NCBI GenBank assembly: GCA_021818005.1
Contig: JAKAFI010000003.1
Coordinates: forward strand, 1-37,920
Source of the DNA: Acidobacteriota bacterium
Lineage (GTDB): Bacteria; Acidobacteriota; Thermoanaerobaculia; Thermoanaerobaculales; Thermoanaerobaculaceae
Direction: 5' to 3'
DNA length: 37,920 nt
Positions within the stretch are counted from its first letter, which is position 1, and each line of letters opens with the position of its first letter. The notes under the pieces were generated by a model, which worked only from the letters and a program-made list of their open reading frames with translations, ran no database searches and had not been told where the DNA came from. Positions 1 to 37,920 of this stretch are shown here, piece by piece. Position numbers and translations under genes: made by a program.

Positions 1-22
1 GGGGTCGCGCGGTGGCCGCTAG
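1..22 (+). CDS. 3' end of small virion-module protein (second copy at 37012-37233)
   Basis: Only the last six codons and the TAG stop at 20-22 are present, reading Gly-Ser-Arg-Gly-Gly-Arg. They equal the C-terminus of the 73-residue protein at 37012-37233. The gene overlaps the start of the adaptor gene by 11 bases in both copies, which supports the wrap-around reading of the window. Confidence 0.8.
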
Positions 23-686
23 CGTCAGCGGAACCACGCTGATCGGTCGCATCCGCGACCTCGGCGGCTATCGCGATCCGTTCATCACGGACGCGATGTT
101 GCTCGGCTGGATCAACGACTCCCTCGCGCAGCTCTGGGAGATCATCGTCAAGTATGACCCCGGCCGGGTAATGACCGCGGCGAACGTCTCGGTGGTCTCA
201 GGGACCGCCGCCTACAACCTCGCCTCGGACTTCTACCGGGTCAAGGGCGTGGCGGTGGCCGACACCGCATCGCCCGACGGGTGGACGGTGCTCGAGCGCT
301 ACATGTGGCCCGAGCGCCACGGCTACTCCGCCAACTCGGAGAAGCTCTCGGCGCGCTGGGACGTGCAGCAGGGGCAGCTCTGGATCTGGCCGAAGCCGAC
401 GTGGGCCGCGTCGGTGCGCGTGGAGTACTTCCCGACGGCCCCGCAACTCGCCACCGCGGCGGGGACCTTCGACTCGATCAACTACTGGACCGAGTGGGTG
501 GTCTTCGACGTGCTGGTGAAGTGCGCTCTCAAGTCCGACGACGACGCGAAGGGCTGGGCGATCGAGCGTGACCGGCGCGAGGCCCTGATCCGCGGGTCCA
601 CCCCGCAGGTCAACGGCGGCGGCCCCAAGACGATGGTCTCGATCTACGACCGGAGCGGAAGCCGGCGTCGGAGGCTGCGCTGGTGA
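12..686 (+). CDS. Head-tail adaptor / tail tubular-like protein, copy 1
   Basis: The product has 224 residues and a GTG start at 12. Its place directly after the capsid block (by wrap-around) and before the large tail protein is that of the T7 gp11-type adaptor, and its size is close to that family. It starts with a helical segment containing an LIGRIRDL stretch, has a Trp- and Tyr-rich middle and ends with a strongly basic tail (RRRRLRW). Family membership rests on position and general look, not on a diagnostic motif. Its stop overlaps the GTG start of the Cys-repeat gene at 683 (GTGA). It differs from the copy at 37223-37897 at about 20 residues, six of them consecutive at 104-109. Confidence 0.6.
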   Translation: MAASVSGTTLIGRIRDLGGYRDPFITDAMLLGWINDSLAQLWEIIVKYDPGRVMTAANVSVVSGTAAYNLASDFYRVKGVAVADTASPDGWTVLERYMWPERHGYSANSEKLSARWDVQQGQLWIWPKPTWAASVRVEYFPTAPQLATAAGTFDSINYWTEWVVFDVLVKCALKSDDDAKGWAIERDRREALIRGSTPQVNGGGPKTMVSIYDRSGSRRRRLRW

Positions 687-1834
687 GGCCGCCGATCTCC
701 AGTCGCGATCCTGCCCTCCTCGAGTCGAACCGGCTCGCGAGGGCAGAGGAGCGCCACCTCGGCGAGGGCGCCCCCAGGCGCAGCCTCGGGGCGCCCCTGC
801 CGAACCTGGAGACGAAGAGCAGGACCGCGGCCTATGGCGATCTGATCTGGGCCGACCCCGCCGCGGGCGCGCTTACCTTCCGGCTTCCGAAGGGCGACCG
901 CGCCCACATCGGAGAGAAGGTCACGGTCAAGAACTACTCCGACTCGACGACGGAGATCACGATCGTCGCGCAGACCCCGGACACGATCGACAAGTCTCCA
1001 ACGAAGGTGATGGCAACCGCTTGGATGCAGGCGACGTGCATCCTCGTCGCCGCGGACAAGTGGATCTGCGCGGCTCAGAACGGCTGCGCTGATTGCTCCT
1101 CGACCTGCTCTGGCACCTGCTCCGGGTCATGCTCTGGCTCCTGCGGTGGGGGATGCGCCGGCGGCTGCCTCGGGACTTGCTCCACCACCTGCGTCGGCGG
1201 CTGCTCCGGTGGCCTCTCCTGCGGCTGCGGAGGGAACTGCTCGGGGGCCTGCTCGACGGGTTGTGGTGGAGCGTGTCTCGGGACGTGCTCCGGGTCGTGC
1301 GCTGGGTCCTGCACCGGGTCGTGCCAGGGGACCTCTCGCGACGGGTGCGTCGCCTGCGCGGCCGACTGCACCGGCACCTGCTCTGGCACCTGCTCTGGCA
1401 CCTGTACGGGATCTTGCACGACCGCTTGCGGCGGGACTTGCACCGGCGGCTGCATCGGAACCTGCACGACCGCCTGCGGCGGGACCTGCACGGGCACCTG
1501 CACCGGATCGTGCTCTACGACTTGCACGGGCGGCTGCTCTACGACTTGCACGGGCACCTGCACCGGATCGTGCGGCGGGACCTGCGTCGGCGGCTGCGGA
1601 ACCGCCTGCACCTCGAGCTGCACGGGAACCTGCACCGGAGGCTGCGAGGCCGACTGCAAGGACAACTGCCGCTACACCTGCACCGCGACATGCGCTAGCG
1701 ACTGCACGACCGCCTGCGTCGAGAGCTGCGGTGCATCCTGCTCCGGGTCCTGCACCTCGAGCTGCACGGGAACCTGCACCGGGGGTTGTGTGGCCGGGTG
1801 CTCCGGAGACTGCTCCGGGGGGGCCGTAGCATGA
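683..1834 (+). CDS. Virion-type protein with ~60-cysteine CXXX repeat domain; candidate substrate of adjacent radical SAM enzyme
   Basis: The product has 383 residues with a GTG start overlapping the adaptor stop. Residues 1-45 are charged and probably disordered. Residues 50-130 look like a beta-rich phage appendage module: an LTFRLP strand, then GEKVTVKN, then EITI, then DTID, ending LVAADKW, a pattern common in tail fibre and spike proteins. From Cys135 to Cys377 a Cys falls at almost every fourth position, with Gly, Ser, Thr and Ala mostly filling the gaps. The register slips at SGGLSCGC and at QGTSRDGCVAC, giving two blocks. There is no signal peptide. The TGA stop overlaps the ATG of the radical SAM gene, so translation is probably coupled. 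I infer a tail appendage whose Cys array is modified. Metal binding or a disulfide ladder are alternatives. Confidence 0.85.
   Translation: MRPPISSRDPALLESNRLARAEERHLGEGAPRRSLGAPLPNLETKSRTAAYGDLIWADPAAGALTFRLPKGDRAHIGEKVTVKNYSDSTTEITIVAQTPDTIDKSPTKVMATAWMQATCILVAADKWICAAQNGCADCSSTCSGTCSGSCSGSCGGGCAGGCLGTCSTTCVGGCSGGLSCGCGGNCSGACSTGCGGACLGTCSGSCAGSCTGSCQGTSRDGCVACAADCTGTCSGTCSGTCTGSCTTACGGTCTGGCIGTCTTACGGTCTGTCTGSCSTTCTGGCSTTCTGTCTGSCGGTCVGGCGTACTSSCTGTCTGGCEADCKDNCRYTCTATCASDCTTACVESCGASCSGSCTSSCTGTCTGGCVAGCSGDCSGGAVA
1085..1816 (+). repeat. 12-nt-period tandem repeat encoding Cys-X-X-X units
   Basis: The DNA repeats in units of 12 bases, one TGC (rarely TGT) codon per four codons, with ACC, GGC and TCC frequent between. 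Longer copies sit on top of this: a 34-base stretch at 1605-1638 recurs exactly at 1749-1782, an offset of 144 or 12 units, and a stretch near 1487-1512 recurs 60 bases later (5 units). Such in-frame duplications would let the array grow or shrink by whole CXXX units. This is coding repeat, not a CRISPR array. Confidence 0.9.
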
Positions 1835-2919
1835 AACGCTCGCTGACCTTCATCGTCACCGACGAGTGCAACCTCCGCTGCTCCTACTGCTACGTGCGGA
1901 AGGGCTCGGAGCGGCTCTCGCTCGACGTGGCCGCGAAGGCGCTCTTCCTGTTTCTGAACGAGCCCCGATTCCGTGACGGGGCCGACGGCTGCACCTTCGA
2001 TTTCATCGGCGGAGAGCCGCTCCTCGAGGCCGATCTGATCGGGGAGATCCTGGACTGTGCGCACGGGATGCTGCGCGGGCACCCCTGGGAGAAGAACCAC
2101 GCCGCAGGGCTGACCACGAACGGGCTGCTCTACAACACGCTCCCGGTGCAGCGGCTTCTGGTGACGAATCGGTGCCTCGGGGTCTCGATCACGGTCGACG
2201 GGCCGGCAGACGTGCACGACGCCGCGCGCCGCTTCCCGGACGGGAGCGGGTCGCACGCCCAGGTCGAGGAGAACGCCAGGCTCTGGTTGCACCAGTTCCC
2301 GGGGCCGCTCACCTCCACCAAGTTCACGCTCTCGCGGAACACGCTCGGGCAGCTCGCCCGCTCGGTGGTCTACCTGCTTTGCGAGCTCCGGGTCCCAACC
2401 GTGAACGCGAACCCGGTGTTCGAGGGTCCGTGGTCAGACGAAGACGCCGCCCTCTACGAGGCGCAGCTCCTCGAGCTCGGGCGCGAGCTCCTGGCACGCG
2501 GCATCCCGCTTGACCGCTGCAACCTCTTCGGTCGACACGTCGGGCTCCCGCACCCGCGTCTCGACGATCAGAGTTGGTGTGGGGCTGGTAAGTGGATGCT
2601 CGCGGTGGACCCCTCCGGGAACCTCTACCCCTGCAACCGCTTCGCGCCCTCCGGCCTCTCGCATCAGCCTCCGATGCCCTGCGGTCACGTCGACGTGGGC
2701 CTCGACTTCGCCGTGCTCGACGCCTTCGCCGCGCTCAAGCGGTCGGAGCAGTCACCGCCCGAGTGCCTCTCCTGCGAGGTCTCCGGGGGCTGCGCCTGGT
2801 GCAAGGGGCACGACTACGACGAGAGCGGATCGATCGCGAAGCGCTCCACGAGCCTCTGTCTGATGCACAAGGCGCGGGCTCGCGCAAACCGAACGCTCTG
2901 GGCCGAGGCTGACGCATGA
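1831..2919 (+). CDS. Radical SAM/SPASM-domain peptide maturase
   Basis: The 362-residue product starts at the ATG that overlaps the previous stop (ATGA). The radical SAM cluster motif CX3CX2C is complete (Cys13, Cys17, Cys20), followed by the GGEP motif at 60-63 that contacts SAM. The C-terminal third is a SPASM domain with auxiliary-cluster cysteines: Cys250-X12-Gly-X4-Cys268, then Cys312-X2-Cys315-X5-Cys321-X2-Cys324 and Cys343. This arrangement is known from maturases acting on ribosomally made peptides and proteins, such as AlbA, CteB, PqqE and the anaerobic sulfatase maturases. No N-terminal RRE peptide-binding domain is present, so the substrate must be recognised in another way. Position suggests the CXXX-repeat protein upstream is the substrate, with thioether formation or epimerisation as candidate chemistries. 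The reaction itself is inference. Confidence 0.93.
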   Translation: MKRSLTFIVTDECNLRCSYCYVRKGSERLSLDVAAKALFLFLNEPRFRDGADGCTFDFIGGEPLLEADLIGEILDCAHGMLRGHPWEKNHAAGLTTNGLLYNTLPVQRLLVTNRCLGVSITVDGPADVHDAARRFPDGSGSHAQVEENARLWLHQFPGPLTSTKFTLSRNTLGQLARSVVYLLCELRVPTVNANPVFEGPWSDEDAALYEAQLLELGRELLARGIPLDRCNLFGRHVGLPHPRLDDQSWCGAGKWMLAVDPSGNLYPCNRFAPSGLSHQPPMPCGHVDVGLDFAVLDAFAALKRSEQSPPECLSCEVSGGCAWCKGHDYDESGSIAKRSTSLCLMHKARARANRTLWAEADA

Positions 2920-5900
2920 CGCGCGCCGTCCTCCCGATCCCGCTCGGCGCCATGGGCCTCAACGCAGGCCCAGAGCCGCGACTTGTGCAGGATGGTCTCC
3001 TCCGGCTCGAGAACGGTCGGTGGGACCGGCGCGGCGCGATCTCGAAGCGGCCCGGGATGGACACCGTTTCGACGGAGGCGAACCACCCGCACCTCGCGAC
3101 GTGGCAGGACAAGCCCGTTCTCCTCGGGAGCACGCTCAAGGTTCGCAACGCGACCACCTCGGCATGGGACGACTGCGGCTCGCTCGGCCTGATGGATCTG
3201 TCGGTCGACTGGCGCGCGGTGGTCCCCGAGGAGCCGTCGGGCGTGGAGGTCGCCGCGCAGGGCGACGTGCTGCTCCTCGTCTTCACGTGGTACGAGGACT
3301 CCGCCATCCTCGCGAACGCCTACCAGTACGCCCGAGCTGTGACCTATTCGAAATCGAGCGGGAAGCGCCTGGCGGTGCTGGATCTCGGCCTCACACACTC
3401 GGCGATCGCCGCGCCGCCACCGTGGCCGGCGCGCGCCATCAACATCAACGGCTCGCTCTACTGCCTGAAGCTCGAGGGGAACTCGCTCAAGCTCGCCACC
3501 GTCTCGGCGGTCGACGGATCGATCGGGTCCTGGTCCACCGCGCACAGCTTCGCGGTCGCCCCCGAGACCGCCGCCGGTGCGCGCTGGGACTGCTGCGTCG
3601 ACGGGTCCACGCTCGTCGTCGCCTTCGCGGACGCCGCGGGCGACGTGCGGCTCGGGTTCCTCGCGGGCAGCATGACCGAGGCTGTCCACGCCGCCACCAC
3701 GGCGCGCGCCGTCGGGTGCTTCCAGCTTCGCTCCGGCGTCGCCGGCATCCTGTTCTATGACGCCGGGACCGCGCCCGACACCGTCAAGTGCGTCGGGTAC
3801 AACACCGCGACCGGAGCCGTCGCGGTTACCGAGATCACGCTCGACACGGCGGTGTTCGCCGTCAAGCACCTCGCCGGCGTCGCGACCTCGAGCACGGTCG
3901 CTGCGTGCTACTGGACAGACGCGACGGCTGCCTCGATCCCGACGGTGAGCGGACACGACTACCGGATCCGAAAAAGCACCTTCACCGACGCGAGCGGGAC
4001 CGGGGTTGCTGGCACTGTGTCCACTCTGAAGGACGGATGCCTGATCGCCGCGCGGCCCTGGCTCGACGGCACCGAGCACTACCTTCCGGTAGCGACGGAT
4101 GTCGGCTCAGGTCTCACGAAGCCTGGCGGTGTGGTGCTGAACTCGAGCGGGGTCCCCGTTGCTGTGTGCCTGGTCGGATCTCAGCACGCCGGGGAGAGCT
4201 ACCATCCTGGGGCGCCCGTCGCGACCACCGGAAGCGCCTATTTCGCGCTCCCGAGCTACGGCCGGTGGTTTGGCGGGCACGACTCGGCCGGCTGGCTCAA
4301 GGGCGCTGCTCCGTCGGATCCTGCGGCGGGCTTCGGCGTCGCGATCGTCACGCTCACCACGACTGACCTGGCGAAGTGCAAGCCAATCGACACGGGACAC
4401 AGCCTCGTGATCCCCGGCGCGCTCCCGCGCGAGTTCGAGGGCTCCGCGATTCGCGAGCTCGGGTTCTTCCAGTACCCGCACAAGTGCTCTGTCGCTGCCG
4501 GCGCCGGAGCGGGCCTCGGGATCGGGACCTACGGCTACGTCTGGGCCTACGAGGCGTTCGACGACCGCGGGCGTCGCGCCGTCTCCTCCTGCTCTCCGGT
4601 CGCCTCGGCCGTGACCACCAGCGGGAATCAGGTGGTCACGATCCAGCCTCCGCCTCCGCTGACGCTGACCCTGCGGCAGGCCGGCGAGTGGCGCGCCGTG
4701 CTCTATCGAACCCTCGTCGGCGGAAGCGTCTACCATCGCCGCGCCGTGCTCGAGGGAGCGAACGCCGCCTCGTGGGTGGCGATGGCCGATGGCCTGGCCG
4801 ACGCCGATCTGGAGACCGAGGAGCAGCTCTACGTAGGAGACCCGGCGTCGATCTCGATTCTCGAGCATGTCCAGGTGCCGCCGTTCCGCGTCGCCGCGAT
4901 GCACGACGGTCGGCTATGCGTGGTGCCGATCGAGGACGACCGCGTGATCTGGTACAGCAAGCCGCTCTTGCAGTCGCAGGCGATCCACTTCTGCGGCGAG
5001 ACGCACTCGCACAGGCCAGTGGCGGCGACCTCCGAGATCACCGCACTCGATTCTTTCTTCGGCCGGATCTGCGCGTGGACCACATCGCGCCTGATCATGA
5101 TCGAGGGCGCCCCGCTCGACAACACCGGCGGCGGCGCCGGGCTCGGCTCCTACCTGCTCCATGACGGCGTCGGGTGCTCCGATCACCGCACCGTCGTGCA
5201 GACGCCCGCGGGCGTGCTGTGGAACTCGAACGCCGGGATCCGGCTGCTCACCCGCGAGCTGCAGCTCGTCGACATCGGCGAGCGCGTGAAGTACCACACC
5301 GAGAACCTGACGGTGGTGCGCGCGGTCGCGCAGCCCGACGACGCCTCGGCGATCTTCCTGACCTCCGGCTCCGCGCTCGAGCTCAACACAGAGCAAGCGA
5401 TCTGGTCGACCAGGACAAACCACGAGGCGAGCGACGGCTGCGTCGCCGGAGGGCTCCTCTGGGTCCGCAACCCGTCGACGGGCGTGGTCAGGAAGCAGGT
5501 AGCGAACCGGCTCGACGGCGGCTCGGCGTTCTCGCTCCTACTCGCGAGCGGGCACCTCTCCCCGGCGAACCTCGGCGGGAAGTTCAGGATCAAGCGCCTG
5601 CTGATCTTCGCCTACCACCTGAGCACGCACACGCTCCACTGCGCGTTCCAGTACGACGGTGACCCGACGTGGATGGACGATCAGGACATGGTCGCCTCGA
5701 CACTCGGCTCCTACTTCTCCTCGGCGGCGCTCCTCGGCTCCGGGCTCGCGTCCACCTACCGGGACAAGGCCTATGTACTCGAGGCGATCCCGTCGCAGGA
5801 CAAGTGCTCCTCGATCGCCTTCCGGATCTACGACGCGAGCGCCACCGGCACCGACGGCGGGATCGAGATCGTGGCCGCTGCGCTCGAGGTCGACGTGAAG

Positions 5901-5942
5901 GAAGGCGCCCTACGCTCCGACACCGTGCGGAGGTTCACATGA
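2916..5942 (+). CDS. Large tail nozzle-like protein (T7 gp12 position)
   Basis: The product has 1008 residues and starts at the ATG overlapping the radical SAM stop. It is rich in beta-prone, Gly/Ala/Thr segments with recurring short strands. It begins with a conserved-looking stretch on receiving parameters (LENGRWDRRGAISKRPGM) seen in podovirus tail tubular B/nozzle proteins. T7 gp12 is about 800 residues, so this is a longer relative, if it is one. It follows the adaptor gene as in T7 except for the two inserted genes. Its TGA overlaps the ATG of the acetyltransferase gene at 5939. Assignment is from length, order and composition. Confidence 0.65.
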   Translation: MTRAVLPIPLGAMGLNAGPEPRLVQDGLLRLENGRWDRRGAISKRPGMDTVSTEANHPHLATWQDKPVLLGSTLKVRNATTSAWDDCGSLGLMDLSVDWRAVVPEEPSGVEVAAQGDVLLLVFTWYEDSAILANAYQYARAVTYSKSSGKRLAVLDLGLTHSAIAAPPPWPARAININGSLYCLKLEGNSLKLATVSAVDGSIGSWSTAHSFAVAPETAAGARWDCCVDGSTLVVAFADAAGDVRLGFLAGSMTEAVHAATTARAVGCFQLRSGVAGILFYDAGTAPDTVKCVGYNTATGAVAVTEITLDTAVFAVKHLAGVATSSTVAACYWTDATAASIPTVSGHDYRIRKSTFTDASGTGVAGTVSTLKDGCLIAARPWLDGTEHYLPVATDVGSGLTKPGGVVLNSSGVPVAVCLVGSQHAGESYHPGAPVATTGSAYFALPSYGRWFGGHDSAGWLKGAAPSDPAAGFGVAIVTLTTTDLAKCKPIDTGHSLVIPGALPREFEGSAIRELGFFQYPHKCSVAAGAGAGLGIGTYGYVWAYEAFDDRGRRAVSSCSPVASAVTTSGNQVVTIQPPPPLTLTLRQAGEWRAVLYRTLVGGSVYHRRAVLEGANAASWVAMADGLADADLETEEQLYVGDPASISILEHVQVPPFRVAAMHDGRLCVVPIEDDRVIWYSKPLLQSQAIHFCGETHSHRPVAATSEITALDSFFGRICAWTTSRLIMIEGAPLDNTGGGAGLGSYLLHDGVGCSDHRTVVQTPAGVLWNSNAGIRLLTRELQLVDIGERVKYHTENLTVVRAVAQPDDASAIFLTSGSALELNTEQAIWSTRTNHEASDGCVAGGLLWVRNPSTGVVRKQVANRLDGGSAFSLLLASGHLSPANLGGKFRIKRLLIFAYHLSTHTLHCAFQYDGDPTWMDDQDMVASTLGSYFSSAALLGSGLASTYRDKAYVLEAIPSQDKCSSIAFRIYDASATGTDGGIEIVAAALEVDVKEGALRSDTVRRFT

Positions 5943-6403
5943 TCCTCCGGCCGATCGAGCCCCAGGACCGCTCGCAGGTCGAGGCACTCTACGGTGCTGA
6001 GCTCCCGCAGTGCCCCGGGCTCGTCGACATCATCCTCGACGAGCCATCCGTGTTCACGCTCGTGGCGGTGGTCGCCGAGGAGGTTGTGGGGGCGCTCTCG
6101 GTGGCGCTCTGCTCGGAGCGGTGGCGTCCAGGCGCCAAGCTGGGCGGGGATCTGGCAGAGGTTCTCGCGATCGCGGTGCGCCCGTCGATGCGCCGCATGG
6201 GGATCGGCCTCCGCCTGATGGAGTCAGCGCACGCCTTCGCGGATGGAAGCGGGGCAAAGCGCCTCGAGGCGCAGATCCGGGAGCAGCCGGAGGCGATCCA
6301 CTGGCTGCTTGCCGGACTCGGCTGGCGCCCGGTGGAGATCGAGGCAGAAACCTACGCCGATGGCCAGCGCGCGATCCGCGTGGCCGCGGAGGTCGGAGGA
6401 TAG
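5939..6403 (+). CDS. GNAT-family N-acetyltransferase
   Basis: The product has 154 residues. The GNAT acetyl-CoA binding motif A is visible: a VLAIAV strand (75-80), then RRMGIG at 85-90, matching the R/Q-x-x-G-x-G/A pyrophosphate loop, followed by a helix. The C-terminal part has the expected late strand (LGWRPVEIEAETY). The start is the ATG overlapping the nozzle-gene stop, so it is made together with structural proteins. The substrate is unknown; a virion protein or a host protein are both possible. Confidence 0.85.
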   Translation: MILRPIEPQDRSQVEALYGAELPQCPGLVDIILDEPSVFTLVAVVAEEVVGALSVALCSERWRPGAKLGGDLAEVLAIAVRPSMRRMGIGLRLMESAHAFADGSGAKRLEAQIREQPEAIHWLLAGLGWRPVEIEAETYADGQRAIRVAAEVGG

Positions 6404-7388: not shown

Positions 7389-8984
7389 ATGGATCTGAAG
7401 CAACTGCAAAACGCCTACCTCACGGAGACCAACCCGCAGAAGCTCGCGGCGATCCTGGCCACCCTCCAGCGGCTCCAGGGCGGATCTGTCCTGAAACCAG
7501 TCTCGATGGATGTTCCAATGGGGGCGTCCGCTGGCTCAGAGCCGATGATGTTTCCGACGACGAGCGCAAAGGAGATCGTTGCGCGCGCCAACGCCGAACG
7601 CTACGGGACCGATTACAACCCGCTGACGATGGACCCGGCCACCTGGTCCCAAGGTTCACCGGCACTCGACACGATGTCTGCGGTCAAGGCCAGGAACGAC
7701 ACGCCGGTCAACGTCCCGCCACCCACTGACCCGCTCGGAGGCCTCGGCGGAGCTCCGCAGGGCCCGCCGCAGATGGTCAGGATTGGCAGCGGAAGCTCGC
7801 GGACGGTGACGCACTCTCCCGAGTTCCCCGCCGCCCTCCTGCCGCAGAAGCGGGCGATCGCCGCGGAGGCGCAGACCGCCGCCCAGGACGCAGCCGCCCG
7901 CAAGACCGCGCTCCTCGACGAGCAGACGGCCCACGCACAGCTCTGGACCGACCAGGCCAACCTTGAGTCACGCCTCGCGGGCAAGGCCGCCGCCGGCACG
8001 TACCAGCGCTACGAGGAGACCGGGCGCGAGCTCGAGCGCGGCCGCGAGCAGATCCGGAAGTCGCAGCTCGACCCGGGCAGGCTCTGGGCGCAGATGCCCA
8101 CGGCGCAGAAAGCGGTCAACGCGATCGGGATCGCACTCGGCGGGTTCGTCGAGGGCTTCACCGCAGGCAAGGTGCAGAACTCGGCGCTCAAGATGCTCAA
8201 CATGGCGATCGATCGCGACATCGCCGCGCAGCGCGACGCCTTCGCCCGGCAGCTCGAGGATCTCAACCTCACCTCGAAGGCTCAGAGCGTGCTCTGGCAG
8301 CAGTGGCGCGCGCAGGAGGCAGACCGCAAGGCCGCGGCGCTCCGCGTCTCGCAGCTCGAGATCGCGAAGATGGGGTTGCAGTCGCAGCGCGAGGACGTGA
8401 AGACGAAGGCCGCGGAGACCGTGCTCGGGATCAAGGACGCGCTCGTGAACACCGAGGCGAAGACGATCCCGAAGACCACGAAGACCTCGAGCTACTCGTC
8501 GAAGACGGTGCCGCTCGCGAGCCTCGTGAAGAACGCGCCCGGGACCAAGACGCCGCCCCCGGCGCTCCTGGATTCCGCGGGGCAGGCCGTCGGCGTTCTG
8601 CAGCAGCTCCGCGGCATCCAGACCAAGCTCAAGGGCTACTCGCTGCTCGGGGCCAAGGCACCGTGGAACACCGAGAGCAAGCGGATCCTGGAGAGCGACA
8701 TCAAGCCGTTGACGGTCGAGCTCGCCAGGCTCGGCGGAGAAAAGGGGCCGCTCTCCGACGGCGACATCAAGCGGGCAACCGAGATGATCATGGGCGGGTG
8801 GAACACATCCGCGGAGCTCTCCGCTCGCCTCGACCTGGCGGCAAAGAAGATCGCCTCCCGCACGGCGGCGAAGCTGGCCACCGCCGCCCCGTACTTCAAT
8901 GTGGCCCCGCTCGCCCAGCAGCTGAGGCCCTACATGGGAGGCGCCGCGCCGGGAGGCGCCGCCAGCTTCGGGAGGCCGCAGTAG
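7389..8984 (+). CDS. Internal virion / ejection protein, coiled-coil rich
   Basis: The product has 531 residues and starts 8 bases after the previous stop with GGTGAC upstream as a ribosome site. The middle (about 135-360) is a long charged helical region with many Ala, Gln, Arg and Glu, likely coiled coil. The N-terminal 130 residues are Pro/Thr-rich. No enzymatic motif is seen. In position it matches the second ejection protein of podoviruses (T7 gp15 place), but it is shorter. Its TAG is followed immediately by the ATG of the next gene. Confidence 0.55.
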   Translation: MDLKQLQNAYLTETNPQKLAAILATLQRLQGGSVLKPVSMDVPMGASAGSEPMMFPTTSAKEIVARANAERYGTDYNPLTMDPATWSQGSPALDTMSAVKARNDTPVNVPPPTDPLGGLGGAPQGPPQMVRIGSGSSRTVTHSPEFPAALLPQKRAIAAEAQTAAQDAAARKTALLDEQTAHAQLWTDQANLESRLAGKAAAGTYQRYEETGRELERGREQIRKSQLDPGRLWAQMPTAQKAVNAIGIALGGFVEGFTAGKVQNSALKMLNMAIDRDIAAQRDAFARQLEDLNLTSKAQSVLWQQWRAQEADRKAAALRVSQLEIAKMGLQSQREDVKTKAAETVLGIKDALVNTEAKTIPKTTKTSSYSSKTVPLASLVKNAPGTKTPPPALLDSAGQAVGVLQQLRGIQTKLKGYSLLGAKAPWNTESKRILESDIKPLTVELARLGGEKGPLSDGDIKRATEMIMGGWNTSAELSARLDLAAKKIASRTAAKLATAAPYFNVAPLAQQLRPYMGGAAPGGAASFGRPQ

Positions 8985-10640
8985 ATGCCGACCCCCGCCG
9001 CCCAGCCCATGATCCTCGGCGTCGCCCCCGACGTGCAGGATCCGTCTCGGCTCGTCGCCTACACGAACGAGCAGGGCGAGGTGTCCATGCGGACGCCGGG
9101 CGGGGAGGCGCGCTGGGTTCCACGCGAACAGGCGCAGGCGGCGGTCAACGCCGGGCTGATCCCCGAGACCCGCGAGCAGTATGAGGTGCGGCGCGCCGGC
9201 GAGCGGGTCGACGCTCCGCTCGAGGCCGGGCTCTCCTCGGCGCTCCGGGCCGGCTCCCTCGGGCTCCTCGACGCGATCAGCCCAGACATCGTGCGGAAGC
9301 ACGCCAGGGACCTCGAGGAGGCGAACCCCATCGCCTCGACGATCGGCGGGCTCGTGGGAACCGTGGGGACGGCGCTCATTCCGGGCGGCCCGCTGGCGCG
9401 GATCGGAGGGCTCGGGGAGCGGGCAGGCGCCGCGGCTCTCGGGGCCGGCAGGGCAGGCCGCGCACTCGCGGAGGGCGCGGCGATCGGCGCCGGAGCGGGG
9501 CTCTCGCAGAGCGCGCTCGCGGGCGAGATCGACGCGGGCGAGATCGCCAAGGGGGCGGTCGCCGGGGCCGCCATGAGCGGGATCCTCTCCCTCGCGGGGG
9601 CCGGGCTCTCCGCCGTCGGGCGCAAGGCGAAGTCGGTAGCGCTCAAGGCCGGGGGCGTCGACGAGCTCAAGCTGCAGCTCCTGCAGGGGCGCGAGAAGGC
9701 GATCACGGATCAACTCTCCGTGCTCGAGGCGCGGGCGGCCGGAGCGCCTCCGCCGACTCCAGGGTTCGCATCGCCGGCCGCCGCCAGGTTCGACCTGGAG
9801 CTCTCCACGGCGCGCGGGGCGCTCGATGCCGTCAAGGGCGAGATCGCAGCGTCGCGTCAGTCGCTCTTTTCCGCCGCCGGAAAGTACCTATCCACCGCTG
9901 CTGGCGCGGCCGGCTTCCTCACGGGGATGCACTTCGACGGGATGCTGCTCGGCCTCGCGGGCGGTGGCATCGGTGGCGTGCTCGCGAAGGCGGTTGGCAA
10001 GCGGATCGGCTCCGCGGCGGAGGCTCTGCTTCCGAAGCTCGAGGGCGCGCTCGGGGTGGCATCCAAGGCGGTCGCTCCGCTCGCACTCGCCGGACGTACC
10101 GGAGCCACGCGGATCGTGTCCGACGAGGCGCTCTCGGCGCTCTCGAAGAGGCTCGAGCTCACCGACCCGGCAGAGATCGGGCGGGCCGCGCTGGCGGGAT
10201 ACTCCGAGGCCGGGCTGGATCCGCAGCTCGCCACCGACGCCGCGCAGTTCCAGGCCGCCCGCGTCGCCCTCCTCAAGAGCGCGGTAGGGTCGGGCAACAA
10301 GGTGTCGGCCTCGCGCGCCCTCGACGCGCTCGAAGATCCGCGCCGCATCGTGCGCCGGCTCGCGAAGCTCGAGCACCACCAGGAGGACCTGCAGGTGCTG
10401 CAGCAGGTGTTTCCCCGCGCATGGTCGGAGCTTCAGGCCGCGGCGCGGCTCCTGCTCGCCGACAGAAAGGTGCGCGGGCGCGACCGGCTCAAGCTGACGC
10501 AGATCGCCGACCCGCAGAGGTGGGCCGGCCTGTTCGCCGTGATGTTCACACCTGCCCCGCAGCCGGAGATCGGCGCGGGCGCCAAACGATTCAACATGCC
10601 CGACGCTGCCACCGGTCTGCAGCGTCTACAGGGAGGATAG
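8985..10640 (+). CDS. Internal virion / ejection protein with Gly/Ala-rich hydrophobic segments
   Basis: The product has 551 residues and starts directly after the previous stop. Several Gly/Ala hydrophobic stretches are present, for instance at 119-133 (STIGGLVGTVGTALI), at 160-180, at 195-215 and near 305-330 with GLAGGGIGGVLAKAVG, so it may insert in a membrane during DNA entry. T7 gp16 is far longer and carries a transglycosylase domain; none is seen here. It is the third of the ejection block. A general Ala-rich phage structural protein would look the same. Confidence 0.55.
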   Translation: MPTPAAQPMILGVAPDVQDPSRLVAYTNEQGEVSMRTPGGEARWVPREQAQAAVNAGLIPETREQYEVRRAGERVDAPLEAGLSSALRAGSLGLLDAISPDIVRKHARDLEEANPIASTIGGLVGTVGTALIPGGPLARIGGLGERAGAAALGAGRAGRALAEGAAIGAGAGLSQSALAGEIDAGEIAKGAVAGAAMSGILSLAGAGLSAVGRKAKSVALKAGGVDELKLQLLQGREKAITDQLSVLEARAAGAPPPTPGFASPAAARFDLELSTARGALDAVKGEIAASRQSLFSAAGKYLSTAAGAAGFLTGMHFDGMLLGLAGGGIGGVLAKAVGKRIGSAAEALLPKLEGALGVASKAVAPLALAGRTGATRIVSDEALSALSKRLELTDPAEIGRAALAGYSEAGLDPQLATDAAQFQAARVALLKSAVGSGNKVSASRALDALEDPRRIVRRLAKLEHHQEDLQVLQQVFPRAWSELQAAARLLLADRKVRGRDRLKLTQIADPQRWAGLFAVMFTPAPQPEIGAGAKRFNMPDAATGLQRLQGG

Positions 10641-20745: not shown

Positions 20746-21177
20746 TCACCTCCCGCCCCCGAGCGCCGCGCCCGCGAGCTTGAGCACGTCCCGCTGCCTC
20801 CACCCCGGCTCGGTGGCGTCTCGGTAGCTCTCCGCCGCCTCGCGCGCCGAGCGCATCCGCCCGCGGCGGGCGTCCTCGACGGCGGCGCGCCGCTCCTGCT
20901 CGCTGCACACGATCGCCAGCGGCCCTGGCCAGCGCGCTGCGAATCGCCACTCCGACTCCGTGAGTCGCCTCCGAGAGGCGGGCTTGCTCCCGTCCTTCAC
21001 CTCGAGCAGGTAGCTGGCCTGGACGGCGATCGGGTCGAAGCACACGAGGTCGAAGCAGGGCACCCCGTAGCTCGCCGCGCTGAACGTGGCGACCCCGTCG
21101 CCCTCGTTCGCGCGCGCGGTCTCGTGGTGGTTCGCGTCGAGCCCGCCGCCCGTCGGTCTGTGGCGCCCGCGGCTCAT
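20746..21177 (-). CDS. PD-(D/E)XK nuclease
   Basis: The product has 143 residues. DANHHE at 14-19, PCFDLVCF with Asp43 and LLEVKDG with Glu59 and Lys61 make the PD-(D/E)XK core; the following LTESEWRFAARWPGPLAIV matches small phage nucleases of the VRR-NUC/resolvase-like type. It may process recombination intermediates or host DNA. ATG at 21177 overlaps the stop of the chimeric frame upstream. Before the 0.9-kb insert its start would have overlapped the stop of the gene now at 22215-22436, since the 129-bp repeat carries exactly this junction. Confidence 0.75.
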   Translation of the reverse strand: MSRGRHRPTGGGLDANHHETARANEGDGVATFSAASYGVPCFDLVCFDPIAVQASYLLEVKDGSKPASRRRLTESEWRFAARWPGPLAIVCSEQERRAAVEDARRGRMRSAREAAESYRDATEPGWRQRDVLKLAGAALGGGR

Positions 21178-21238
21178 GGCGCGACCTTGTCCTTCCGGTG
21201 CCGCACGAGCCCCTCGCGCTCCTCGAGGAGCGGGCGCA
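21110..21238. repeat. Left 129-bp direct repeat flanking low-GC insert
   Basis: This stretch is identical base for base to 22151-22279 (offset 1041). It includes the start of the nuclease gene and the end of the coiled-coil gene, whose ATGA junction is at 21174-21177 here and 22215-22218 in the other copy. Confidence 0.97.
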
Positions 21239-21584
21239 CCAGACGCTCAAACCGAACACCAAGCTTGCGGCATGAACCTCCCCTTGTTCCCGGAAACTTG
21301 GGGGCACACTGAGGACGAGGCCAAAGGACCATGACAATGACTGGCTGATTGTGACGAAGGTCTCTAGTGTTCTGGTCCGTATACACCCAGACGATAACAT
21401 CATCGCCATAGAAGTCAGTCAGCTCGATGATGTCAAAGACCATCTTATGCATGGTCTCAGAAGCTATGGCCCTCTGCTCTTCCTTCTCCTTGTCACGAAC
21501 TATCTGAGCCGCATCTTCGGCCTGCTTCTTCGCGGCTGTGTTCTGGATATCAGCAACTTCTCGTGGGGAAAGACCATCAGCCAT
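21174..21584 (-). CDS. Insert gene with C-terminus from the repeat (chimeric)
   Basis: The product has 136 residues from the ATG at 21584 (TGATG with the upstream stop; a GTG at 21587 is possible). Residues 1-95 or so are encoded in the insert: a charged helix (KKQAEDAAQIVRDKEKEE) and then a strand pair (DDVIVWVYTDQN). The last 20 residues are those of the protein at 22215-22436. The original C-terminus is thus lost or replaced. Function not recognised. Confidence 0.5.
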   Translation of the reverse strand: MADGLSPREVADIQNTAAKKQAEDAAQIVRDKEKEEQRAIASETMHKMVFDIIELTDFYGDDVIVWVYTDQNTRDLRHNQPVIVMVLWPRPQCAPKFPGTRGGSCRKLGVRFERLVRPLLEEREGLVRHRKDKVAP

Positions 21585-22150
21585 CACACTAACTCTCCGC
21601 CTGGTTCATCCTTGTATCGTACGAATACACCAATACCATTACGAGGATGACCCTCCTTGGTCGGATAGAGCTTATTGGCTTGAGACCTCCTCTGGATCTG
21701 GAAGTCAACAGGTAGACCACTATGATGCGCCAGGTACAGCGCTATCGACGAACACATGAGAGACCACAGGGCGTGGTAGTTCTCATTGTGCCCCGCCAAA
21801 CCAGGAAACAGACGATCATAGTCCTCGTCAGCTAGAATGACCCTGACATCTACGTCTCTATAGTCCCGCTTCTTGAGGCAAGAACCTACGAGGTAGGTGA
21901 CCAGACCGCCGAAAGCTTCATCAACCACCCTACAAGCTTGGTTGAGGTTGAAGAACTCAGGACAGGTCAACCAATGAGCGCGATGTGGCTCACTTACGGC
22001 TTGAACTGGACTATCTTCCATGGCCCCTTGAACACCTGCTGAGTCGTGTCGATGACAACCACCACATGATCGTCATTCGTACCGTCCTCTGCCTTGAGGA
22101 CCATGAGCTTGCACAAAGGCTCCAGATCTGGCATCACCATCTTGATGCGA
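21239..22150. mobile_element. 912-bp low-GC insert between direct repeats
   Basis: Between the two 129-bp repeats the base composition falls visibly to about half G+C against about two thirds to 70% around it, and codon use changes. The insert holds one complete leftward gene (nucleotidyltransferase-like) and two frames that run into the repeats. No inverted ends, transposase or homing endonuclease is seen. Removing the insert and one repeat would rebuild an ATGA-coupled gene pair. It may be a gene cassette that entered by homologous exchange, or an assembly join between two related phages. Confidence 0.75.
21584..22021 (-). CDS. Nucleotidyltransferase-fold protein in insert
   Basis: The product has 145 residues. 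TYLVGSCLKKRDYRDVDVRVIL (42-63) contains Gly46-Ser47 and the Asp56-X-Asp58 pair, the core of the pol-beta-type nucleotidyltransferase fold, and LPVDFQIQRR further on may supply the third acidic residue. I recall similar proteins in actinobacterial phages. It might transfer a nucleotide to a protein or small molecule, for example as a host-takeover or toxin-like factor. It is complete within the insert and its base use differs from the rest of the genome. Confidence 0.7.
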   Translation of the reverse strand: MEDSPVQAVSEPHRAHWLTCPEFFNLNQACRVVDEAFGGLVTYLVGSCLKKRDYRDVDVRVILADEDYDRLFPGLAGHNENYHALWSLMCSSIALYLAHHSGLPVDFQIQRRSQANKLYPTKEGHPRNGIGVFVRYKDEPGGELV

Positions 22151-22218
22151 GCGCGCGCGGTCTCGTGGTGGTTCGCGTCGAGCCCGCCGCCCGTCGGTCT
22201 GTGGCGCCCGCGGCTCAT
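21994..22218 (-). CDS. Chimeric frame: nuclease N-terminus joined to insert sequence
   Basis: The product has 74 residues. Residues 1-23 equal the first 23 of the PD-(D/E)XK nuclease and are encoded in the right repeat; the remaining 51 come from the insert and have strand-like segments (HVVVVIDTTQQVF). It starts at an ATGA junction and overlaps the nucleotidyltransferase start by 28 bases. It is either the truncated end of another insert gene or a product of the join. Confidence 0.45.
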   Translation of the reverse strand: MSRGRHRPTGGGLDANHHETARARIKMVMPDLEPLCKLMVLKAEDGTNDDHVVVVIDTTQQVFKGPWKIVQFKP

Positions 22219-22279
22219 GGCGCGACCTTGTCCTTCCGGTGCCGCACGAGCCCCTCGCGCTCCTCGAGGAGCGGGCGCA
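22151..22279. repeat. Right 129-bp direct repeat flanking low-GC insert
   Basis: Perfect copy of 21110-21238. To its right the original high-GC gene at 22215-22436 is intact, whereas to its left the low-GC insert begins at 22150. Confidence 0.97.
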
Positions 22280-22436
22280 TCTTCGCCGTCACCGCGTCCC
22301 GCTCTGCGCGGAGGGCGTCCAGCTTCTCGTCGAGCTCGGCGACGCGCTTGCGCCGCGTCTCCTCGGCCTCGATCTTGGCGAGCGCCTCCCGGTGGTGCTT
22401 CTCGGCTGCGGCCTTGCGTTGCTCCAGCGTTGGCAT
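22215..22436 (-). CDS. Small coiled-coil protein
   Basis: The product has 73 residues from the ATG at 22436, which has AGGAGGAGA 5 bases upstream, a very strong ribosome site. The whole protein is one charged heptad-type helix (AELDEKLDALRAERDAV). Its stop overlaps the start of the frame at 22218. Function unknown; possibly a partner of the nuclease. Confidence 0.6.
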   Translation of the reverse strand: MPTLEQRKAAAEKHHREALAKIEAEETRRKRVAELDEKLDALRAERDAVTAKMRPLLEEREGLVRHRKDKVAP

Positions 22437-29946: not shown

Positions 29947-30485
29947 TGGCCGCACTGACAGCAGATGGCATGATCCGGATCGCTCTCGAGCATCCGATCT
30001 ACCATCTTCCGGTCTCCGTCCGCGCCGCGGCTCCGGCCGACGAGGGTTTCATCTTCTCCGGCTGGCTCCGCTCGCTCGCGGATCAGCCCCCGTTCCGGGA
30101 CCTGCTCGAGTCCCGCGGCCTCGATCGCAACTGGTACTCAGCCGCGCAGCACGCGCTGATCTCGCGGCTGCTCGCGCGCGCGAGCGTTCGCGTGCTCGCG
30201 GCCACCTCGCCGCAGCACCCTGATCACCTGATCGGCTTCATGGTCTTCGAGCCGGCCGAGCGCGTGGTCCACTGGATCTACGTCAAGAAGGGGGCGAAGG
30301 TCGGCCTCGGCTTTCGCTGCGCCGGCGTCGCCACGCGCCTGATGATCGCCGCCTTCGGCGAGCGCAGCGCCGAGCCGGTCACCGCCTCGATCCGAACCGC
30401 AACCGGAACAGCGCTCGCCTCGAAGTGGAGCGAGCGCTGGCCGATCACCTTTCGCAGTCACCGCCTGTGCGAGGAGCAACCATGA
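29946..30485 (+). CDS. GNAT-like acetyltransferase-fold protein
   Basis: The product has 179 residues. VSVRAAAPADEGFIFSGWLRSL at the start, HLIGFMVFEPAERVVHWIYVKKG (about 93-115) and then a Gly-rich turn (KVGLGFRCAG) before a helix follow the GNAT order; a similar protein occurs in many head modules of phages. The acetyl-CoA loop is less clear than in the protein at 5939-6403. The start shares a base with the previous stop. Confidence 0.6.
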   Translation: MAALTADGMIRIALEHPIYHLPVSVRAAAPADEGFIFSGWLRSLADQPPFRDLLESRGLDRNWYSAAQHALISRLLARASVRVLAATSPQHPDHLIGFMVFEPAERVVHWIYVKKGAKVGLGFRCAGVATRLMIAAFGERSAEPVTASIRTATGTALASKWSERWPITFRSHRLCEEQP

Positions 30486-30829
30486 TGGCCGCAACCGAGA
30501 AGATCGTTCGCGTGCAGCTCTCCGAGCAGCTCGTCGGCGTGTTCCGCGGCGAGGTCACGCCGAAGAGCATTGAGCCGGGGAAGCGTGGCTTCACCGTTGA
30601 GGAGCACGATCGCTACCTGCAGATCAGCCGCCGCGATCCGCGCCGGCCGAATGTCGAGGTCGTGGCCTGCATCGGCTACGGCCCTGGCGTCGTGATCGTG
30701 AAGGAGCGCACCTACGCCGCAACCGAGTCCACCCCGCAACGAGTGAGCACCGATGGATCCGCGAGCAGCGCTGAGCCTGCTGGCCGCCGAGCTCGCCCGG
30801 CGGGCCGCACAACGGGGAGCGACGAGTGA
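30482..30829 (+). CDS. Small protein upstream of terminase
   Basis: The product has 115 residues from the ATG at 30482, overlapping the previous stop. Residues 1-80 are ordered-looking with several strands (KIVRVQLSEQLVGVFRG, RYLQISRRDPRRPNVEVVACIGYG). The last 35 are Ser/Arg/Gly-rich and overlap the terminase start by 77 bases in another frame. Might be the true small terminase, though no HTH is seen. Confidence 0.5.
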   Translation: MMAATEKIVRVQLSEQLVGVFRGEVTPKSIEPGKRGFTVEEHDRYLQISRRDPRRPNVEVVACIGYGPGVVIVKERTYAATESTPQRVSTDGSASSAEPAGRRARPAGRTTGSDE

Positions 30830-32267
30830 ATTTCACCCCGGCCAGGCTCGCGTCCGAGCGCTCCGTGATGATCGCGGCGCTCTGCCTCGTCGTGTCGGTC
30901 TGCTCACCCACCGCCGCTGGGGCAAGACCCACTACCTCGTCACCGACGAGGCCGACGTGTGCCTCTCGCGCGAGCGCGCCCGCTGCTGTTACATCGCCCA
31001 GCAGAAGACGAACGCAAAGCGCCTCTTCCTCGAGGCGATGCTGCCTCTCGCGGAGAAGTACGGCTGGGACTACGACTGGCACGCCGTCGATCTCGTCTGG
31101 ACCTTCCGCGAGACGGGGAGCTACGTCCAGGTCTGCGGGATGGACGACCCCCGGACCATCCGCCTCCTCCGCGGGTTCAAGTGGGATCGAGCTCACATCG
31201 ACGAGGCGCAGGACTTCATCTATGGCGACCTGCAGAATCTCACGATGCGCGTGCTCGGCCCCGGCGTTGCTGAACGTCGCGGCCAGATCGTCATGGCGGG
31301 GACTCCGGGCGACGCCGAGAACTTCTTCTGGGAGGTCGTGGCAGCTCGCCGTCACCACGACTGGCTCGTCGAGCATGGCAAGTTCCTCGAGAACCCTCAC
31401 ACCAGGGGCGCTCTCCTCGAGGAGATCGAAGGGCTCATTCGCGCCAACCCCGGCGTCATCCACGAGCCATGGTTTCAGCGCGAGTATCTCGGTCGCTGGA
31501 TCGCCGACTCCCGCCTTGCAGAGGTCGAGGTTGACCTCGAGCGCAACGGGCTCCGCGAGTGGACGCGCGAAGGCGACGATCGCTTCGATCTCGGGATCGA
31601 CTGGGGATGGACCGCTGCGCCTGCCGTCGCAAGCAGCGCGGAGCGGAAGTACAGCGCGGCCTACGTGCTCGGCACCTGGAATCCGCGCCGCTATCCATGG
31701 TTCGTCTACCTCCAGGCGCGACTCCTCGAACCGATGTTCATTCACGAGCACGTCGCCTTGCTCCGCGAGATGCTCGCGCGATGGCCTGGCCTCCGCATCT
31801 TCGGTGACCCAGCCGCCGAGGCCGGGCCGCTCCACGACGACCTGCGGAACATCTTCGGGATCCCAATCGAGGACGCCGAGAAGCGGGACAAGCGCTATCA
31901 CATCGAGCGCCTCAACTCCGAGAGCTCCCAGGGGCACCTCAAGCTCTTCCATCTCGACGAGGCCGACGGAGAGCCCGCGGTCGGTCGCGTGCTTCACTCG
32001 CCGCACCCTGAGCACCATCCGCTCTTCCGGCAGTGGCGATCGCTGGTGTGGGGCAAGGGGCCCGGAGGAAAGCGCGTCGAGGGATCGCCGCGCCACCTCC
32101 ACGACGGAGCGCTCTACGCTCGCCGCGGAGCCTATCTCTACGCCTATCGCGAGCCTCAGCCTCCCGAGACGCCCGAGCAGCGCGACGCGAAGATCAGCGC
32201 CCACATGCGAGAGACGCGGCTCCTTCACATGCGGAAGAACCAACGCCGCGCGCACCACGGGAGGTGA
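30753..32267 (+). CDS. terL: Terminase large subunit
   Basis: The product has 504 residues. ATPase part: HRRWGKT (53-59) is the Walker A variant common in phage terminases, RAHIDEA with Asp150-Glu151 is Walker B, and MAGTP (181-185) is the coupling motif. Nuclease part: LGIDWGW with Asp283, IFGDP with Asp352 and HDGALYA with Asp451 supply the RNase H-like metal site. It packs DNA into the procapsid and cuts it. The long overlap with the upstream gene leaves the exact start open, but EFHPGQARV (26-34) is already a conserved part. Confidence 0.93.
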   Translation: MDPRAALSLLAAELARRAAQRGATSEFHPGQARVRALRDDRGALPRRVGLLTHRRWGKTHYLVTDEADVCLSRERARCCYIAQQKTNAKRLFLEAMLPLAEKYGWDYDWHAVDLVWTFRETGSYVQVCGMDDPRTIRLLRGFKWDRAHIDEAQDFIYGDLQNLTMRVLGPGVAERRGQIVMAGTPGDAENFFWEVVAARRHHDWLVEHGKFLENPHTRGALLEEIEGLIRANPGVIHEPWFQREYLGRWIADSRLAEVEVDLERNGLREWTREGDDRFDLGIDWGWTAAPAVASSAERKYSAAYVLGTWNPRRYPWFVYLQARLLEPMFIHEHVALLREMLARWPGLRIFGDPAAEAGPLHDDLRNIFGIPIEDAEKRDKRYHIERLNSESSQGHLKLFHLDEADGEPAVGRVLHSPHPEHHPLFRQWRSLVWGKGPGGKRVEGSPRHLHDGALYARRGAYLYAYREPQPPETPEQRDAKISAHMRETRLLHMRKNQRRAHHGR

Positions 32268-32270
32268 CGC

Positions 32271-34154
32271 GTGAGCGACTGGTCTTCCTTCTGGTGGGGC
32301 TGCATGCACGCCGACGACGCCGGGCGAAAGCTCTGGGCGACGTTCGAGACGATCCGCAGTCAGCACCTTGCCAGACTCGAGCGGCTCAAGCGCCTGACCG
32401 ACGCCTACCGGAATGTGGAGCCGGTCAACGGCTTCGACCCGTTCCTCTGGAAGCTCCGCGGCATCTTCGGCGCGCCGGTGACCTTCAACGTGGTTCGATC
32501 CGCGATCAACACCGCCGTCGCGCGCCTCTCGCTCCGCGACCCCATGGCGATGTGGGGGACGAGCGCGGGCGATCAGAAGCAGAAGCAGATCGCGCAGGCG
32601 CGGACGAAGCTCGCGGCCGGCGTGATCCAGCGCGAGCGCGCGTTCTCGCGCTCGTTCATCAAGGCCCTCAAGGACTGCGCGATCGGAGACTTCGGTTGCG
32701 TGCGCCCGAAGGCCGACGGCGAGCAAATCCGGGTCAAGCGCGTCCACCCCTCGCGCATCTTCTGGGACGAGACCGCAGCCCTCGACGACGATCCACCCTC
32801 GCTCTATGAGCTCTCCTGGCCGACGCCGGAGGAGCTCGCCGCGATGTTCACGCGCCGAGCCGACGACATCATGCGCGAGGCCAAGCGGCTCTCGGTCGCC
32901 GGTATCGACGGGGTGGCGGCGCGGCAGGTCGTGGAGTGCGTCGAGGCTTTCCACCCCGCGCGCGGAAACGCCCCCGGGCGGCGAGCCATCGCGATCGAAG
33001 GCGTGGGCGTTCTCGTCCAGGACTGGGACGGACCCTGGCCGCACAAGTTCGTGCGCTGGGATGGCGGGGACGTGCTCGGGTTCTCCTCGGTCTCCGCCGG
33101 GGACGAGCTGCTCCCGCTCCAGGAGGAGCTCGACTTCATCCTCGAGAGGATCGCCGAGAACGCCGAGGCGCACAGCGGCGCGAAGATCTGGAAGCCGAAG
33201 GGCTGCGAGGTCAACACGGACGATCTCGCCCGCAACGACCCGAACGCTGTCCACGAGTACGTTGGGGACAGGCCGCCAACGCTCCAGCTCTGGGACATCA
33301 TGTCCCCGCAGTATTTCCAGTGGGCCGAGACGGTCTACCGCCGCGCGTTCGAGATCGTGGGCGTCAGCGAGTTCTCCGCTACCTCGAAGATGCCGGGCCC
33401 GCGGATGGAGTCGGGCGAGGCCATCCGCGCCTACCAGGAGCCTGAGAGCGTCCGCTTCGCGCCGCTCGAGCGCGCCTACACCGAGCTCGTGGTCGACGTG
33501 AGCGAGGAGATCACTCGCGAGGCCCGCCGGCTCGCGCGGACCCACAAGGGGTGGGCGGTGAGCTACCTCGAGCGCGACCGCACGTTGACGCAGGTCAAGT
33601 GGTCCGACGCCGAGGGCAGCGACAACGGTTTCACCGTTTTCCCGCAGGCCCAGAGCGGCCTCCCGATGCAGCCGGCGGCGCGGCTCTCCAAGCTCCACGA
33701 GCTCGCCCGCGATCAGGTCGTGGACCGCGCGACCTTCATCGCCTACGCCGGCCCGCTCATGGGCGCCGACATGGAGGATTGGTGGCAGCTCGCGAACGCC
33801 CCCGTGGCCGCGATCCGGAAGCTGCTCGACTCCATGCTCGCAGCCGGTGACTACCTCGAGGAGTGCCGGCCGTTCGAGGCGATGCCGGGGCTCGAGCTCG
33901 GCGTCCAGATCGCCATGGCCTACCTCGCGCGAGGCGTCGCCGAGGGCCGCCCGAAGGCCGAGGCCGATCTCCTGGTCACATGGATCACCGACGCAGCCGC
34001 GCTGATCAAGGCTCGCACGATGCCGGCGCCGCAGGCCGGGGCTCCCGTGGTCCCGTCCGCGCCGACGCAGGTCGCCGCTCCACCGCCGTCCCTGGGCCCG
34101 GGGGTTGCCGGGCCGCCGACGATGCCGGGCCCAGGCCCGATGCCGAACGCGTGA
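32271..34154 (+). CDS. Portal protein
   Basis: The product has 627 residues with a GTG start and GGGAGGTGA as ribosome site. It follows the large terminase and precedes scaffold and capsid, the standard portal place. A stretch near 200-280 (helix DELLPLQEELDFILERIAENAEAHSGAKIW) is like the portal stem/wing helices, and the C-terminus is Pro/Ala-rich. No stem motif is strictly diagnostic, but length and place fit podovirus portals (500-700). Confidence 0.85.
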   Translation: MSDWSSFWWGCMHADDAGRKLWATFETIRSQHLARLERLKRLTDAYRNVEPVNGFDPFLWKLRGIFGAPVTFNVVRSAINTAVARLSLRDPMAMWGTSAGDQKQKQIAQARTKLAAGVIQRERAFSRSFIKALKDCAIGDFGCVRPKADGEQIRVKRVHPSRIFWDETAALDDDPPSLYELSWPTPEELAAMFTRRADDIMREAKRLSVAGIDGVAARQVVECVEAFHPARGNAPGRRAIAIEGVGVLVQDWDGPWPHKFVRWDGGDVLGFSSVSAGDELLPLQEELDFILERIAENAEAHSGAKIWKPKGCEVNTDDLARNDPNAVHEYVGDRPPTLQLWDIMSPQYFQWAETVYRRAFEIVGVSEFSATSKMPGPRMESGEAIRAYQEPESVRFAPLERAYTELVVDVSEEITREARRLARTHKGWAVSYLERDRTLTQVKWSDAEGSDNGFTVFPQAQSGLPMQPAARLSKLHELARDQVVDRATFIAYAGPLMGADMEDWWQLANAPVAAIRKLLDSMLAAGDYLEECRPFEAMPGLELGVQIAMAYLARGVAEGRPKAEADLLVTWITDAAALIKARTMPAPQAGAPVVPSAPTQVAAPPPSLGPGVAGPPTMPGPGPMPNA

Positions 34155-37011: not shown

Positions 37012-37233
37012 GTGGACGCGAAGACCCCGACCGGCGACGACTTCGCCGCGAGCATCGCGAAGAAGGCGCTTCAGAAGCCCGACGAGAACCCCGACGAGAC
37101 CGCGGCCGCGCTCGGGCGCGAGCTCCTTGGCGTGCTCGACAAGAAGGATCCGGCCGCGCTCGGGCGGCTCTTCGCGTCGCAGGTCAAGATCGCCGTGGCC
37201 GAGGCCATGAAGGGGTCGCGCGGTGGCCGCTAG
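37012..37233 (+). CDS. Small acidic helical protein before adaptor
   Basis: The product has 73 residues with a GTG start 9 bases after the previous stop and GGAGGCGAC upstream. It is helical and charged (KKALQKPDENPDETAAALGRELLGVL), ending GSRGGR. Its end overlaps the adaptor start by 11 bases. The same end is seen at window positions 1-22. Confidence 0.6.
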   Translation: MDAKTPTGDDFAASIAKKALQKPDENPDETAAALGRELLGVLDKKDPAALGRLFASQVKIAVAEAMKGSRGGR

Positions 37234-37897: not shown

Positions 37898-37920
37898 GGC
37901 CGCCGATCTCCAGTCGCGAT
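37894..37920 (+). CDS. 5' end of Cys-repeat gene, second copy (cut by window end)
   Basis: GTG at 37894 overlaps the adaptor stop, and the 27 bases visible are identical to the first 27 of the gene at 683-1834, giving MRPPISSRD. The rest lies beyond the window or, on the wrap-around reading, is the gene at 683. Confidence 0.85.

Follow-up and report, generated by a model that had tools for sequence, protein, structure and literature searches.

Small peptides and enzymes are known to undergo radical SAM maturation, and a literature search that had most subscription journals outside it found no description of its use in building virus particles. Phage radical SAM genes have been interpreted as metabolic (PMC2853527). 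Two characterized enzymes resembling the one considered here, CteB (SCIFF) and the ranthipeptide maturase PapB, are radical SAM/SPASM proteins that make Cys thioethers in short peptides. A second point of comparison is the TIGR04114/TIGR04115/TIGR04117 pair, in which an array carrying one cysteine per four-residue repeat is encoded next to a SPASM radical SAM enzyme from the group of the one considered here; a literature search on this CXXX system found no paper, and the literature searched gave no established chemistry for the TIGR04115 group. With respect to tail genes, the adaptor and nozzle genes of T7 are adjacent. In the Kuravirus SU10 the long-fibre genes gp12 and gp13 directly follow the adaptor gene gp11, the nozzle is gp17, and the adaptor carries a dock for the long fibres (PMC9509320).

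Genome layout and the gene row behind the adaptor

The window, i.e. the whole stretch of 37,920 nucleotides that was analysed, has the following features:

12-686, forward strand: adaptor gene of the SU10 type (PF24175, E 6e-14), head-to-tail; 31% identity to the adaptor of phage L152
683-1834, forward strand: Cys-repeat protein, 383 aa, 63 Cys, with a possible docking segment, a predicted XD1-like domain and a CXXX array
683-817, forward strand: N-terminal segment of the Cys-repeat protein, residues 1-45, with a predicted helix at 10-26 (AF2, low confidence in this segment)
818-1066, forward strand: predicted beta domain, residues 46-128, like T4 gp9/gp10 and TSP4 XD1 (AF2 and Foldseek)
1067-1813, forward strand: CXXX array, consensus C-[TS]-G-[TS], with 55 exact four-residue spacings
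1831-2919, forward strand: candidate radical SAM/SPASM maturase, 362 aa (TIGR04115 E 1e-94; CteB 5WGG E 3e-20; invariant Cys)
2916-5942, forward strand: protein of 1008 aa, a putative nozzle named solely from its position and size, without family or structure match
5939-6403, forward strand: GNAT acetyltransferase (PF00583 E 4e-10; phrog_1249)
30753-32267, forward strand: terminase large subunit (TerL; start possibly 30957; phrog_2 E 3.5e-24)
32271-34154, forward strand: portal protein (phrog_156 E 5e-13)
35254-36468, forward strand: major capsid protein (phrog_14242 E 4e-8; 27% identity to L152)
37223-37897, forward strand: adaptor gene in a second variant, with the beginning of the same Cys gene behind it at the contig end (709 nt, 91% identity to the contig start)

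Both contig ends lie inside the same adaptor gene, and the two end copies (1-709 and 37212-37920) match exactly at both extremes, with 40 of their 65 differences at third codon positions. As the contig begins and ends in this gene, it most likely represents a whole genome of ~37.2 kb, circularly permuted and assembled through two strain variants. Such a strain bubble is more likely than a tandem duplication of the adaptor, given that the same Cys gene start follows each copy. The variants differ at 20 amino-acid positions, with the highest density near residues 105-114, and possibly represent a fibre dock that differs between co-existing strains. Read around the circle from the terminase, the genes that follow are portal, scaffold (by position), capsid, two small genes, adaptor, Cys protein, radical SAM enzyme, large protein and GNAT, with TerL, portal, scaffold and capsid placed just upstream of the adaptor. 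The bin contains no other copy. A host origin of the Cys gene and its enzyme was also considered and rejected, the bin having no other TIGR04115 match and its 59 relatives none above the cut-off. Elsewhere in the window a second GNAT-like gene (29970-30485) adjoins the terminase, and on the reverse strand (20746-22436) the ORFs 20746-21177 and 21994-22218 start with an identical stretch of 23 residues and their neighbours have an end in common, indicating a local duplication.

The adaptor belongs to PF24175 (SU10_adaptor), scoring 53.3 bits against a gathering cut-off of 27. Given that the SU10 fibre genes come directly after the adaptor, the Cys gene and the enzyme would by analogy occupy the normal long-tail-fibre slot, which is itself an ordinary feature. 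The preliminary description had the pair inserted between adaptor and nozzle genes; this is not supported, as gp12 and gp13 separate gp11 from gp17 in SU10 and the nozzle identity here is positional, so that no conserved adaptor-nozzle junction has necessarily been broken. The two tails share an adaptor of one Pfam family with fibre-type gene(s) next to it, but the fibre place of SU10 is without an annotated CXXX array or radical SAM gene, and similarity between its nozzle gp17 and the 1008-aa protein is undetectable. The latter protein has no match in Pfam, NCBIfam, PHROGs, the PDB or phage records, and its AF2 model (pLDDT 31) is without a usable fold.

The sequence bears out exactly the row of five genes joined by four successive 4-base overlaps, with GTGA at the adaptor/Cys gene junction and ATGA at each of the Cys gene/radical SAM, radical SAM/1008-aa gene and 1008-aa gene/GNAT junctions. 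Since 12 of the 41 same-strand junctions in the window have such overlaps, four in succession are unremarkable. Among 54 enzyme-Cys gene pairs the Cys gene may lie on either side of the enzyme gene (5' or 3'), and the spacing ranges from overlap to 2 kb. The earlier proposal that exact coupling ties the dose and timing of modification to tail assembly is therefore not supported: 4-base overlaps are common here and are kept neither in L152 nor as a fixed arrangement in the 54 pairs, and we regard them as an ordinary feature and weak evidence.

The Cys-repeat protein and its radical SAM partner

The array holds 62 Cys within 256 residues, and its 55 spacings of exactly four residues are far beyond chance, 2000 shuffles having given a mean of 6.6 and a maximum of 16. 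The protein matches the CXXX repeat model TIGR04114 at 27.2 bits (cut-off 20) and has no export signal or signal peptide. Among phage families the array and the enzyme match phrog_6085 and phrog_1802, although the labels of these in PHROGs are unknown function or "radical SAM domain-containing protein", with no tail role.

N-terminal to the array, residues 1-45 are a possible docking peptide by analogy with the SU10 fibres. The N-domain was modelled with AF2 from three input sequences, giving a moderate-confidence model whose pLDDT averages 64 overall and reaches block means of 69-82 across residues 51-130. A Foldseek search of the PDB with this model gave a best E of 3.8e-5, and the top 14 matches were all phage spike, tail or baseplate chains, including the KP1 baseplate, CBA120 TSP4, the Pa223 spike, T4 gp10, the Solidus tailspike and T4 gp9; the next ranks were StcE and CpaA. 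Precisely gp9, gp10, CpaA and StcE have been given as DALI relatives of the TSP4 domain XD1 (PMC8825819). The same model recovered 275 matches at E <=0.001 from BFVD, many of them named tail fibre or baseplate. At the sequence level the domain scores 15.9 bits against PF07880, the T4 gp9/gp10 N-terminal family (E 0.014), below the gathering cut-off of 25; it has a weak match to phrog_958, "baseplate wedge subunit" (E 0.003), and no significant match in sequence searches of the PDB. Residues 1-135 have two homologs in L152, at 48% and 39% identity. The predicted fold resembles that of T4 gp9/gp10 and CBA120 TSP4 XD1, which join fibres or spikes to the tail, but the sequence similarity to these is not significant, and the shaft that follows is a CXXX array rather than a beta-helix or an enzyme. 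In L152 a Cys-less XD1-like paralog (8565-9029) directly precedes the CXXX gene.

The enzyme aligns with nearly the full TIGR04115 model at 317.9 bits, below the curated cut-off of 350, and has a CXXX gene (683-1834) directly upstream, as the adjacent-target definition of that family specifies. By sequence it is thus best described as a close relative of TIGR04115 and not as a formal member. An alignment of six sequences showed that: 1) the radical SAM motif CxxxCxxC at positions 13-20 (C13, C17, C20) is invariant; and 2) so are the SPASM cysteines C250, C268, C312, C315, C321 and C343. The closest solved enzyme is the thioether maturase CteB and the second-best model is PapB. Their significant similarity to the enzyme suggests that its chemistry is probably thioether formation, although their substrates are short peptides, whereas the one here would be a single long and repetitive protein of a phage. 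Compared with CteB, the enzyme is missing the N-terminal region ahead of the part that matches, and a recognition gene for the pair was not found.

Relatives in phages and cells

A search of IMG/VR with a six-enzyme profile recovered 277 relatives, and at 33 of the 35 distinct viral loci with complete 3-kb flanks on both sides a CXXX gene lies on the same strand. Genome loci were split by enzyme score on a local HMM derived from three members of the family, at least 200 bits being taken as strong: a CXXX gene is present within 3 kb in 35 of the 37 loci of strong enzymes versus 1 of the 43 loci of weaker relatives, which makes the association of enzyme and array specific. The neighbouring genes are mostly on the same strand (125/138), and the named PHROG families among 81 flanking genes are mostly tail fibre, with tail fibre and tail collar fibre families at the top, such fibre neighbourhoods recurring in unrelated phages; in L151 the pair is downstream of a baseplate wedge gene. 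GNAT genes of phrog_1249 are found near the pair in two unrelated phages, at 5939-6403 in the window and at 7982-9274 in L151.

The CXXX proteins are modular, with arrays of 36-630 residues and a separate domain of at least 90 residues on the N-terminal side in 41 of 62 and on the C-terminal side in 12 of 62. These domains comprise a conserved type of ~105 residues as well as discoidin-type (L192), PKD-like (L153, weak) and glycine-rich (L151, L228) versions, and the last three are likewise virion-like anchors. A strict twin-arginine (Tat) pattern occurs in 31 of the 48 CXXX ORFs from genome contigs versus none of the 78 phage CXXX ORFs. L233 has RR signals that the strict pattern misses, and most of the CXXX ORFs of genome contigs without Tat signals look like prophage versions. 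The same pair with Tat-signal CXXX proteins is seen in Bacteroidales, Rhodospirillales and some Clostridia. In contrast to these cellular members the protein in the window has an XD1-like tail domain in place of the Tat signal, and its pair lies in a phage tail operon with an enzyme below the curated cut-off. Many matches of a bare TGY-N9 pattern scan proved to be low-complexity or wrong-frame ORFs, and these were set aside.

In the enzyme tree the window groups with L152, L151 and L153 (support 85) on the cellular side, apart from a large Firmicutes-type phage/prophage clade; the tree requires several exchanges between cells and phages, with long branches that leave the details unsure. The closest phage found is L152, whose terminase, portal, capsid and adaptor are 26-31% identical to those of the window, and a search for pair-free sister phages by means of the nozzle, portal, adaptor and N-domain yielded only this phage. 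Its order is adaptor (PF24175), enzyme, Cys-less N-domain paralog and CXXX gene, with no 4-base coupling between Cys gene and enzyme. Hence, the position of the pair after the adaptor is kept in L152, but the gene order and the 4-base coupling are not.

A candidate cross-linked tail shaft and its alternatives

The XD1-like model, the fibre slot, the fibre neighbourhoods, the absence of Tat signals in phages and the conserved position in L152 together lend strong, if indirect, support to the view of the Cys-repeat protein as a probable component of the tail. This upholds the preliminary description, which had already preferred a tail part to an accessory secreted peptide; the lack of an export signal and the restriction of Tat signals to cellular versions point the same way. 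We therefore consider it fairly likely that the protein serves in the tail as a fibre- or spike-like element encoded in the long-tail-fibre slot, with a CXXX shaft cross-linked by the SPASM radical SAM enzyme, probably via thioethers. The N-terminal segment and the gp9/gp10-like XD1 domain would anchor it on the tail, probably as a trimer and with the adaptor as the most likely site, and the 250-residue array would form a shaft or whisker. The neighbouring enzyme would modify this array inside the infected cell, most likely by introducing many sulfur-to-carbon thioether cross-links, and the outcome might be a stiff, protease-resistant and disulfide-independent rod. We infer the modification of this array, the thioether chemistry, the virion location, the trimer, the docking site and the rod function alike from the comparisons above.

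A tail protein with metal-binding or disulfide-forming cysteines, the radical SAM enzyme acting elsewhere or differently (e.g. by epimerisation or methylation), would be compatible with the lack of an established account of TIGR04115-group chemistry in the literature searched, and the product cannot be read from the Cys spacing alone; but the tight co-occurrence of enzyme and array, and the fact that the closest characterized enzyme by sequence makes thioethers, render this unlikely. Bacteriocin maturases share the superfamily of the enzyme and the cellular CXXX proteins are exported, which might suggest a non-structural RiPP-like product (a toxin, a superinfection-exclusion or an anti-host peptide) matured from the array and released in the cell or at lysis, with the N-domain serving only as leader or scaffold. 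However, the protein has no signal peptide, no protease or exporter gene was recognised near the pair, and the predicted tail-spike fold, the tail fibre neighbours and array lengths of up to 630 residues all disfavour such a product, leaving it distinctly improbable. Least probable, in our estimate, is that the pair is a cargo (moron) cassette which landed by chance in a structural operon and has no virion role: the GNAT gene in the same run and the several phage lineages beside cellular ones in the enzyme tree are in line with it, but a post-adaptor position shared with so diverged a phage as L152, fibre neighbourhoods repeated across unrelated phages and the virion-type anchor domains are not.

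Returning to the proposed cross-linked tail shaft, what is not ordinary is a widespread phage system in which an array probably matured by a radical SAM enzyme is joined to tail-anchor domains. More tentatively, as quite possible rather than probable, we propose that many tailed phages use their own radical SAM enzyme in a RiPP-type manner to make thioether cross-linked CXXX shafts for their tail fibres or spikes, with varied tail-anchor domains replacing the cellular Tat signal. As the pair recurs beside tail-fibre genes in many unrelated phages, some virus tails may contain enzyme-made chemical cross-links. If so, many phage genes labelled "unknown" or "radical SAM" would represent a tail-fibre system and a new fibre material, and the dichotomy of Tat signal in cells versus tail anchor in phages makes both sides testable.

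Several further loci show variations in size and arrangement. One or two small genes lie between the array gene and the enzyme in L154, L161, L162, L170, L174 and L182; such inserts are common to many Firmicutes-type phage loci, a subset of ~100-115 aa being alike, and their products could be recognition or chaperone proteins. The phage CXXX protein of L153 (7306-9603) reaches 765 aa with 160 Cys and has internal block duplications. Contigs of Termititenax/Margulisbacteria, either bacterial or prophage (L261-L265), encode CXXX proteins of 495-667 aa with 79-122 Cys that lack a Tat signal and adjoin enzymes of a distinct clade. Finally, the cultured jumbo phage Cronobacter phage CR5 (L313) has two unannotated CXXX-repeat ORFs (136236-137047, reverse strand) that adjoin two radical SAM genes (CR5_153, CR5_154) near virion structural genes.
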